A stretch of DNA of 44,059 nt from NCBI GenBank assembly GCA_945863115.1, contig CAMAYZ010000009.1, positions 1-44,059 of the forward strand, given 5' to 3'. The notes below the pieces were generated by a model that ran no database searches, was not told the origin of the DNA, and saw only the letters and a program-made list of their open reading frames with translations. Shown here piece by piece: positions 1,400 through 3,562 of the stretch. This DNA comes from Bifidobacterium breve. Its GTDB lineage: Bacteria > Actinomycetota > Actinomycetes > Nanopelagicales > Nanopelagicaceae. Each line of letters opens with the position of its first letter. Position 1 is the first letter of the stretch. The position numbers were made by a program, and so were the translations under genes.

Positions 1400-2005
1400 T
1401 CAGAAATCAAACTTCTCGGCCTTTCCAGGGTCGGTTACTGCTAAGGCCACCTCTTTCATCGAGAGCCGGCGGTCCATGGCTGACCTCTGGATCCAGCTAA
1501 AGGCTTCCGGTTCGCTCATATCCATCGCCTTCATCAAGATGCCTTTTGCACGATCGATAATTTTCCGGGTTTCTAATCTGTCATACAAATCTGCCACTTC
1601 TTCTTTCAAAGATCGCATTTGCAAATGTCTGCTCATCGCAATTTCAATAGCAGGCGTTAAATCGTTGATGCTAAATGGTTTGACTACATATGCCATTACG
1701 CCGGCATCTCTAGCCCGCTCTACTAATTCTTTCTGACTAAAAGCAGTGAGCATTAGGACTGGTGAAATTTCGATTATTTCTTGCGCCGCTGAGATTCCAT
1801 CAAGTTCGGGCATCTTTACATCGAGAATAGCGAGGTCCGGCTTAAACTCTTTTGCTAGCGCAATTGCTTCCACGCCATTAGTTGCTTGTGCAACAACTTC
1901 ATAACCGGCCTCAGTCAACATTTCAATTAGGTCAAGGCGAATTAACGCTTCATCTTCGGCGACTAAAATCCGAGCCGGCCTATTTTCTTCTTTTTTTTCT
2001 GACAT
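1400..2005 (-). CDS. pdtaR: ANTAR-domain response regulator, PdtaR type
   Basis: 201 aa. It is a two-component response regulator whose output binds RNA and antiterminates transcription. The receiver domain covers about residues 11-125: acidic pocket E17/D18, phosphoacceptor D62 (LAILDVKMPELDG), T87 and K109 (VVKPFS). The ANTAR domain covers about residues 144-190 and has the conserved pattern ETRKIIDRAKGILM followed by SEPEAFSWIQRSAMDRR. Its histidine kinase partner (PdtaS in mycobacteria) is not in the window. The ATG at 2005-2003 lies one nucleotide after the 3' end of the upstream tRNA. Any Shine-Dalgarno (GAGG, 2012-2009) would sit inside the tRNA acceptor stem, with only 3 nt of spacing. 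Translation may therefore depend on tRNA processing that leaves an almost leaderless message. An A8 run early in the gene (1998-1991) is a possible slippage spot. Confidence 0.95.
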   Translation of the reverse strand: MSEKKEENRPARILVAEDEALIRLDLIEMLTEAGYEVVAQATNGVEAIALAKEFKPDLAILDVKMPELDGISAAQEIIEISPVLMLTAFSQKELVERARDAGVMAYVVKPFSINDLTPAIEIAMSRHLQMRSLKEEVADLYDRLETRKIIDRAKGILMKAMDMSEPEAFSWIQRSAMDRRLSMKEVALAVTDPGKAEKFDF

Positions 2006-2006
2006 G

Positions 2007-2079
2007 TGCCTCGAGTCGGATTTGAACCGACACTGTGCGGATTTTGAGTCCGCCCTCTCTACCGTTGGAGTACCGAGGC
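2007..2079 (-). tRNA. tRNA with CAA (Leu) anticodon but short class I variable loop
   Basis: A 73-nt cloverleaf can be folded. The acceptor stem is GCCTCGG/TCGAGGC (7 bp, G7-U66 wobble), with U8 and A9. The D stem has 3 good pairs (CTC/GAG) and a C13-A22 mismatch. The D loop contains GG. The anticodon arm is GCGGA-CTCAAAA-TCCGC with anticodon CAA. The variable loop is 5 nt (ACAGT). The T arm is GTCGG-TTCAAAT-CCGAC, and the discriminator is A73. CCA is not encoded; the genome continues CAT, whose last two bases begin the pdtaR ATG. Anticodon CAA reads UUG (Leu) and A73 suits LeuRS, but bacterial Leu tRNAs normally have a long class II variable arm. It may be a divergent Leu tRNA or a tRNA-like RNA with another role. 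Confidence 0.85.
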
Positions 2080-2119
2080 AATCTTTCTTAACTTACTTCA
2101 ACTACGCCCCATACTTTAA

Positions 2120-3562
2120 CTACTTGCGATATGCAGGAGCAATTCCTTCAACCGCATCGCCAACGCGGTGAACTCGCATAGCGTTCGTCGAACCCGGAAT
2201 TCCGGGCGGTGAGCCTGCGACGATGATGACGCTATCGCCCTTTGCTACTCGATGAGAGTCGATCAAGATTCGGTCAACCTGGGCAACCATTTCATCGGTA
2301 TGTGAAACCATCTGAGTAATTTTTGGTTCGATTCCCCATGAAAGCGCGAGTTGATTAAAAACTTCAGGCGTCGGAGTAAGCGCCATAATATTTATCGGAG
2401 AACGCAACCTCGACATTCGACGGGCAGAATCTCCACTTTGAGTGAAAGCAACTAGATACTTGGCGCCAATAATCGCACCAACTTCGGTCGCCGCCTTAGT
2501 TATTGCACCACCCTTTGTTTTTGGATCGTGTTGCAGTGCCGGTATCCGATCCAGCATTACCTCTTCGGTCCGTTCGATAATTCGAGCCATTGTCGTAACA
2601 GCTTCGATTGCAAATTCACCAACACTTGTCTCTCCCGAAAGCATCAAGGCATCTGCCCCATCTAGAACTGCATTTGCACAGTCGGTAGCTTCTGCTCTTG
2701 TTGGTCTCGAACTTGAAATCATTGAATCCAACATCTGAGTAGCAACGATTACAGGTTTCGCAGCTTCCCGCGCAAGCATTACGCAACGCTTCTGAACAAG
2801 TGGCACTTCTTCAATCGGCATTTCCACACCCAAATCACCACGGGCAACCATGATGCCATCGAAGGCAGCAATAATTTCTTCTAAGTTATCAACTGCCTGT
2901 GGCTTCTCAATTTTTGCAATAACTGGACGGTGGATGCCCTCTTGTTTCATAATCAAATGAACATCTTCAATATCTTTTGCACTGCGAACAAATGAAAGCG
3001 CAATGAAATCTGCGCCGGCGCGCAGGCCCCAACGTAGATCCTCTTTATCTTTTTCCGAAAGCGCCGGAACTGAAACCGCGACTCCTGGAAGATTTATTCC
3101 CTTGTTATTACTAACCGCGCCAGGTTCGATGCACTTTGTAACAACATCGTTTCCTTTTACCTCGACAACTTCAACGGTAACTTTTCCGTCATCAATTAGA
3201 ATTCGATCTCCTGGCTTGCAATCCCCTGGCAGACCTTTGTAAGTAGTTCCTACTCGATCCTTTGTGCCAGAAACTTCATCGGTTGTAATTGTAAAAATAT
3301 CGCCGCGTGCTAGATCGTGTGGTCCATTCTCAAAGCGCGCTAGGCGAATCTTTGGTCCCTGTAAATCTACGAGAACAGCTACTGCTACTCCAGCCTTCAG
3401 AGCAGCTGCCCGAACTGCATCAAGTCTTGCCTGATGCTCGGGATATCCACCGTGAGATAAATTCAACCGGGCCATATTCATGCCGGCAGCAATTAATTGC
3501 TCTACCTTTTCGGGCGCCTCTACCGCTGGTCCCATGGTGCAAACAATCTTTGCTTTACGCAT
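2120..3562 (-). CDS. pyk: Pyruvate kinase
   Basis: 480 aa, full length for bacterial pyruvate kinase. It transfers phosphate from phosphoenolpyruvate to ADP, the last step of glycolysis, in the cytosol. The N-terminus MRKAKIVCTMGPA is canonical. R32, N34 and S36 (MARLNLSHGG) bind substrate and potassium, and DLQGPKIRLARF follows near residue 66. A lid-like B domain covers about residues 72-165. The catalytic-lysine signature VIAKIEKPQAVDNL lies near residue 215-228, then MVARGDLGVEMP and the ATQMLDSM stretch. The C-terminal regulatory domain includes FTQSGDSARRMSRLRSP. It lies 44 nt downstream of gltD with its own ribosome binding site (GGAAGCGG) and 40 nt before the tRNA, so pyk, tRNA and pdtaR may share a transcript. 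Confidence 0.98.
   Translation of the reverse strand: MRKAKIVCTMGPAVEAPEKVEQLIAAGMNMARLNLSHGGYPEHQARLDAVRAAALKAGVAVAVLVDLQGPKIRLARFENGPHDLARGDIFTITTDEVSGTKDRVGTTYKGLPGDCKPGDRILIDDGKVTVEVVEVKGNDVVTKCIEPGAVSNNKGINLPGVAVSVPALSEKDKEDLRWGLRAGADFIALSFVRSAKDIEDVHLIMKQEGIHRPVIAKIEKPQAVDNLEEIIAAFDGIMVARGDLGVEMPIEEVPLVQKRCVMLAREAAKPVIVATQMLDSMISSSRPTRAEATDCANAVLDGADALMLSGETSVGEFAIEAVTTMARIIERTEEVMLDRIPALQHDPKTKGGAITKAATEVGAIIGAKYLVAFTQSGDSARRMSRLRSPINIMALTPTPEVFNQLALSWGIEPKITQMVSHTDEMVAQVDRILIDSHRVAKGDSVIIVAGSPPGIPGSTNAMRVHRVGDAVEGIAPAYRK

Follow-up and report, generated by a model that had tools for sequence, protein, structure and literature searches.

A long variable arm is treated as a standard trait of bacterial leucine tRNAs. 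The determinants of leucine identity seem, nevertheless, to lie elsewhere in the molecule: according to excerpts of PMC9976931, those of Escherichia coli are A73, the A15-U48 pair, G18G19 and A20a, the sequence and folding of the long arm show no correlation with leucylation, and tRNA-Leu variants without long arm and anticodon arm are still active. The same excerpts describe human mitochondrial tRNA-Leu(UUR) as having no long arm and relying on A73 and A14. The tRNA-Leu(CAA) studied here is like it in being of the UUR kind, in having no long arm and, probably, in owing its identity to A73 and A14; it differs in being a bacterial gene in a genome that also has class II Leu tRNAs, where a single LeuRS was found for the two kinds. 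Another case is a short-loop tRNA-Leu(TAG) that, according to excerpts of PMC6582537, two Mycobacterium strains carry in a cluster of tRNA genes. It too is bacterial, specific for Leu and short in its loop, but it reads CUA, belongs to an accessory cluster and is accompanied, at another place in the genome, by a class II isoacceptor of the normal kind. Finally, part of a toxin study names "especially" Leu-2, -3 and -5 of M. tuberculosis as having a long variable loop (PMC11541572), which suggests that the remaining Leu tRNAs of that species are short-armed; it is a passing mention there, made without any analysis of identity or distribution. Beyond this hint at M. tuberculosis members, we found no paper in the open-licence PMC literature that describes a family of short-armed tRNA-Leu(UUR) in bacteria, which is weak evidence of absence.

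The gene occupies positions 2007..2079, minus strand, of the window, by which we mean the whole stretch of 44,059 nucleotides that was analysed. A first-pass annotation, made from the letters, had read it as a 73-nt cloverleaf with A73, anticodon CAA and a variable loop of 5 nt, and this description stands. ARAGORN calls a tRNA-Leu(caa) at 2006-2079 of the minus strand, where 2006 is an encoded C74 (the CCA itself is not encoded), and RF00005 matches 2007-2079 on the same strand with 55.7 bits (gathering 29, E 1.3e-10). The discriminator A73 is position 2007, the anticodon (34-36) is 2044..2046, and the class I variable loop (44-48) is 2032..2036, read ACAGT from 2036 to 2032 on the minus strand; its last base, U48, is the partner of A15, as judged from covariation of 15 and 48 in relatives. 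Energy folding gives an MFE of -26.6 kcal/mol (z -2.53, with 4 of 200 shuffles equally good) and recovers the acceptor, anticodon and T stems, and the RF00005 score together with the fold rules out a chance or false tRNA. A better fold with a long variable arm, which the annotation had considered, was looked for and there is none, only 5 nt lying between two intact stems, against arms of 13-15 nt in the UAG and GAG tRNAs of the same genome; by this measure the gene is not class II. A plus-strand match to the Rfam Plastid-ycf2 element was rejected (34.1 bits, under the gathering score of 65.7).

A covariance search of the source genome, a 1.32-Mb draft that is 93.5% complete, gave 40 tRNAs. Four are Leu tRNAs: UAG and GAG, with variable arms of 13 and 15 nt, and UAA and CAA, both with 5 nt. 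A second CAA tRNA was not found among the 40, and the gene at 2007..2079 is thus the only tRNA found in the draft whose anticodon matches UUG exactly, although at 93.5% completeness a class II CAA gene may have been missed. The UAA tRNA might read UUG too, by wobble, and the CAA tRNA therefore need not be essential. The same search returned a few odd genes of other isotypes: a Gly(ACC) (G000:C6:80506-80577, 40.5 bits) whose D arm, by eye, resembles that of Gln tRNAs, as well as a Val(AAC) and an additional Val(GAC) whose D loops look Arg-like by eye and whose variable loops have 6 nt (C2:135890-135963 and C11:16937-17010 of the same genome, G000).

How widespread is this tRNA body? A pattern that asks for a YAA anticodon, a D loop of Leu type and a variable loop of exactly 5 nt occurs in 72 genomes of a phylum-wide draw of 296 (1/296 for the reversed control pattern) and in 84 of 118 drawn across the class (control 0/118), 76 of them among the 100 better genomes of that class sample. 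The pattern is strict and misses variants, since allowing one mismatch brought in two more genomes, of family f3. The class II arm, taken by the first-pass annotation as the norm for bacterial Leu tRNAs, thus fails as a norm for the UUR isoacceptors of many Actinomycetes (the same 84 class genomes). A CAA-only scan of named genomes, which did not sample them at random, added at least 118 loci, 107 in Actinomycetota and 11 from seven other phyla; of these 11, L160 matches by chance. For comparison of positions we parsed 154 rows, 30 from the phylum survey, 122 from the CAA scan and 2 from phages, and kept the 152 that fold, with at least 3 pairs in the anticodon stem and at least 6 in the acceptor stem, which left out L160 and one misparsed row of locus L150; Saccharofermentans (L109) was kept in spite of a class-II-like D stem, and is probably a separate case. 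The phage genes are those of Streptomyces phage Alone3 (CAA) and cyanophage S-CREM1 (UAA). The record of the M. abscessus prophage prophiGD02-2 (L188, 1-50) opens inside a short-armed tRNA-Leu(UAA), of which it has the 3' half, and this gene is therefore probably its attachment site. Two genomes of Chloroflexota, one of Pyrinomonadaceae and a MAG from Actinomycetes have short-armed UAA and CAA tRNAs at a short distance from each other.

The D stem of tRNA-Leu(CAA) is weak by energy. The MFE structure pairs C10-U11-C12 with GAG at 21-23 and the centroid fold has no D stem at all, whereas the covariance alignment pairs the same three bases with GAG at 23-25 (C10-G25, U11-A24, C12-G23), a register shifted by two, and leaves C13.A22 unpaired. 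We favour the latter register because 10-25 and 11-24 are standard pairs in 152/152 short-armed UUR tRNAs, with compensatory changes. The three good pairs and the C13-A22 mismatch that had been noted from the letters are right in this conserved register, and the mismatch is not decay, since C13 faces A22 in all 152 (the UAA tRNA of the same genome included), A22 being forced by the search pattern and C13 not.

The features by which LeuRS would recognise this tRNA are all there. A73 and A14 are present in it and in 152/152 of the short-armed set. It also has the A15:U48 Levitt pair, a position pair at which the set shows A-U in 138, G-C in 13 and A-C in 1; this covariation was not imposed by the search pattern, and the 13 relatives with G-C run counter to the E. 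coli determinant A15-U48. G18G19 and A20a can be read directly in its D loop, AACGGTAG, while in the relatives G18G19, A20a, G21 and A22 were imposed by the pattern and their conservation is no evidence. Taken singly, these identity features are not specific for Leu, as A14 occurs in 39 of the 40 tRNAs of the genome, and each of A15:U48 and A73 is found in isotypes besides Leu. The combination of G21, A22, A15:U48 and A73, on the other hand, is found among the 40 only in the four Leu tRNAs; tRNA-Cys has G21 and A22 but G15:C48 and U73.

Do the codons concerned mean leucine in this genome? TTA and TTG make up 113 of the 263 Leu codons in five genes of the window. In alignments of pyk and pdtaR, the two genes that flank the tRNA, Leu is the majority residue in 8 of 12 TTG columns, 8 of 10 TTA columns and 26 of 31 CTN columns, a small sample of two genes with distant homologs (identity up to 75%) in which the homologs' own use of TTA and TTG was ignored; put the other way, Leu is not the majority in 4 of 12 TTG columns against 5 of 31 CTN columns. 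As the TTG and TTA columns mostly align with Leu, UUR most likely stands for Leu here. One LeuRS frame exceeds the family cut-off in the genome (minus strand of L191, G000:C20). It is 818 aa long from the first Met and can be aligned with Thermus LeuRS from one terminus to the other, except that Thermus residues from about 597 to 633, before the KMSKS motif, have no counterpart; we take this missing insertion to be the leucine-specific domain.

The annotation had left three readings side by side: a divergent Leu tRNA, a tRNA charged by another synthetase and a tRNA-like regulator. The second has in its favour the short variable loop itself and a human case described in part of PMC8450103, and nothing further was found to support it; we consider it very improbable in view of the G21, A22, A15:U48 and A73 combination, which marks this tRNA and its three Leu companions and is absent from the remaining 36, the recurrence of the same body with a CAA anticodon at no fewer than 107 actinobacterial loci, the lack of any other CAA tRNA among those found in the genome and the majority of Leu in the UUG columns (8/12). 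The identity set, the 15-48 covariation and the status of only CAA tRNA found all speak for the first. That no other Leu(CAA) tRNA might exist, this one being simply charged in the normal way, had been seen as fatal to any oddity; the first half is true as far as the draft goes, and normal charging by LeuRS is likely. We think it very probable, on these grounds, that tRNA-Leu(CAA) is a UUG-reading elongator of a short-armed lineage, charged by the ordinary LeuRS, for which the long arm is dispensable. The gene would be expressed and its product would read UUG in elongation; the ordinary LeuRS of the genome would charge it in spite of the short arm, and the arm would be dispensable because bacterial LeuRS would read A73 and the D-loop and tertiary core (A14, A15:U48, G18G19, A20a), all of which are present.

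The two body types seem to replace each other. We searched 26 genomes of the same class for UUR tRNAs of both classes, counting UAA and CAA apart, which makes 52 slots; exactly one class was found in 44, both in 1 (CAA in G268) and neither, by these patterns, in 7, an agreement that is inflated by the relatedness of the 26 genomes. One class II match (G182:C38), with an unpaired anticodon stem, was set aside by eye, and all 20 class II UUR matches that were fetched are tRNA-Leu by ARAGORN. In six of the 26 genomes, our source among them, the UAA and the CAA tRNA are both short-armed and there is no class II UUR match; in others a short UAA tRNA accompanies a class II CAA tRNA, or a short CAA tRNA a class II UAA tRNA. 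In many Actinomycetes the short-armed tRNA-Leu(UUR) lineage would thus stand in for the class II tRNA at UUA, at UUG or at both, and we infer that the long form gave way to the short one and not the reverse. Outside Actinomycetota the situation is different. Ten genomes of other phyla were reached through named loci, and seven have a class II CAA match besides the short tRNA, so that the latter often looks like an extra there; two have a class II UAA match only, and Nostoc has neither class II UUR match. These ten, and the occurrence of short-armed Leu tRNAs in phages, are what could be said for a degenerating or horizontally acquired extra tRNA, derived from a phage or a mobile tRNA array. 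For the gene in the window we regard such an origin as extremely improbable, given that the same body stands before pdtaR in 70/70 inspected genomes of the family and that no class II UUR match was found in the source genome, in Candidatus Planktophila versatilis or in M. asiaticum (the third actinobacterial genome checked alongside the last two, Bombiscardovia, has a class II UAA).

The short-armed tRNAs resemble class II bacterial tRNA-Leu in A73, A14, A15:U48, the Leu-type D loop with G21 and A22, and the Leu codons that they match. What they do not share is the 13-15-nt arm, and the core differs in step with it. We compared the 152 with 22 class II Leu tRNAs (the UAG and GAG of the source genome and 20 class II UUR tRNAs of Actinomycetes): position 9 is A in 148 of the 152 and G in 22/22; pair 12-23 is C-G in 151 and G-C in 22/22; and the C13.A22 of all 152 is replaced by G13.A22 in 20 and A13.A22 in 2. 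Judged by these positions, the tertiary core of the short-armed set is a different one, beyond mere shortening of the arm. A tree of 174 tRNAs made by a quick method (65 columns, anticodon removed) leaves 64 of 125 inner branches open, with 10 starred; on it the class label needs 2 changes, and 9 are needed for the anticodon label among the short-armed tRNAs. This suggests, from a tree that is mostly unresolved, one short-armed lineage in which C34 and U34 have been swapped.

The neighbourhood of the gene is conserved as well. pyk, for pyruvate kinase (2120..3562, minus strand; Pfam PF00224, PF02887), ends 40 nt before the tRNA, and a response regulator gene with receiver and ANTAR domains (1400..2005, minus strand; PF00072, PF03861) follows it, with its start codon at 2005-2003, 1 nt past A73; we call it pdtaR, as the annotation did and in keeping with usage. 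The order pyk-tRNA-pdtaR is also found in Candidatus Planktophila versatilis and in a Candidatus Nanopelagicales MAG, in which pyk and pdtaR are both 94% identical to those of the window, so that the source most likely belongs to the same group. A search for PdtaR in 101 genomes of the window's family gave 99 strong matches (E 3e-66 or lower) and two weak ones (G356, G365). We inspected 70 family loci (L204-L233 and L254-L293, that of the window included; 31 of the 101 genomes are outside this count), and a short-armed tRNA-Leu(CAA) lies upstream of pdtaR in 70/70. The guess that this could be a recurring actinobacterial feature beside pdtaR proved sound: among the 107 actinobacterial CAA loci listed, pdtaR lies within 600 nt of the tRNA at 85, divergently at 73 (median gap 121) and downstream in the same direction at 12; one more is otherwise placed, and at 21 the sequence available around the tRNA shows none. 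The four loci with the label Candidatus Nanopelagicales are divided, two co-directional and two divergent.

It is this constancy, the position directly before pdtaR in the family and the proximity at 85 of the 107 listed loci, that could suggest that the gene is a tRNA-like element which controls the ANTAR regulator downstream, for instance as an attenuator or a decoy, and takes no part in translation. We hold this to be very unlikely: UUG would then be left to wobble by the UAA tRNA alone, the 15-48 pair has been maintained along with the stems of the acceptor, anticodon and T arms, and among the 107 loci listed tRNA and pdtaR are divergent at 73 and pdtaR is missing from the available sequence at 21. 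Nothing was found that supports this reading.

An elongator tRNA may, all the same, influence the gene that follows it. In mitochondria, tRNA punctuation is the way in which maturation of a tRNA sets the 5' end of the next mRNA. The likeness here is that tRNA maturation would set the 5' end of pdtaR mRNA. In 62 of the 70 family loci A73 is followed by a C and then by a start codon in frame with PdtaR (ATG 57, GTG 5), so that the start lies at the very 3' end of the tRNA and there is no room for a leader. Seven of the eight loci without this junction have a start 34-64 nt after A73, preceded by a purine-rich, SD-like stretch (by eye); the eighth is L293. Other starts among the exceptions are an in-frame TTG at 28 in L227 and an in-frame ATG at 8 in L259. 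In the window, no in-frame ATG, GTG or TTG precedes the pdtaR ATG back to the nearest stop, and tRNA-Leu(CAA) is the only one of the 40 tRNAs of the genome with an ORF (at least 80 aa) starting within 17 nt downstream. The acceptor strand contains a GAGG, ending 3 nt ahead of the ATG, that may act as a weak SD for pdtaR.

Where would the transcript start and be cut? A -10-like hexamer TAAGTT (2090..2095, minus strand), the putative tRNA promoter, lies 16 nt before the first base of the tRNA; TANNNT occurs at -16 to -14 in 30 of the 70 loci against about 5 in mononucleotide shuffles, a comparison in which the 70 loci are related and the shuffles ignore kinship. A stricter scan for a sigma-70 promoter on the minus strand between pyk and the tRNA found none. 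As to the 3' end, C74 is encoded in 40/40 tRNAs of the genome (the full CCA in 20), and where CCA is not encoded the next base is never C (0/20), which suggests that tRNA processing retains C74. tRNase Z was considered as the cutting enzyme and dropped: the source genome has only a partial match to TIGR02651 (24.8 bits, in a 773-aa frame), and nine family genomes reach at most 25.3 bits, one of them without a match, while two other Actinomycetes match over the length of the model with 270.3 and 265.2 bits (the curated cut-off, 292.95, is not reached even there). The lack of a convincing tRNase Z in the family therefore disfavours the simplest punctuation model.

A parallel may exist in Propionibacterium acnes, which, according to excerpts of PMC3848588, has no obvious tRNase Z and cuts some tRNA 3' ends between the two Cs of CCA, just as a cut after A73-C and before AUG at pdtaR would require. 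In the same excerpts other tRNAs are cut a few nt downstream and no junction between a tRNA and a leaderless mRNA is described; moreover, those cuts were mapped, and the junction at pdtaR is deduced from sequence only. We found neither an association of pdtaR with tRNA-Leu nor a leaderless bacterial mRNA made by tRNA processing in the open-licence PMC literature, which is weak evidence of absence. We put forward tentatively, and with somewhat more doubt than confidence, that the transcript would start a few nt before tRNA-Leu(CAA) and that an endonuclease other than a recognisable tRNase Z would cut after the encoded C74. The downstream product would then begin exactly at AUG and be a leaderless mRNA for the ANTAR antiterminator PdtaR, and the output of this regulator would be tied to the production of the tRNA that matches UUG.

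If the short-armed tRNA-Leu(CAA) is what we believe it to be, a single LeuRS appears to charge both short- and long-armed tRNA-Leu in these bacteria. The type of tRNA body varies codon by codon across the class, which makes it a natural test of recognition by LeuRS and of the means that keep SerRS away, and annotation that judges the Leu isotype by the arm could misjudge short-armed genes. Finally, the A73-C-AUG junction offers a directly testable case in which the 5' end of a bacterial mRNA would be set by the trimming of a tRNA.
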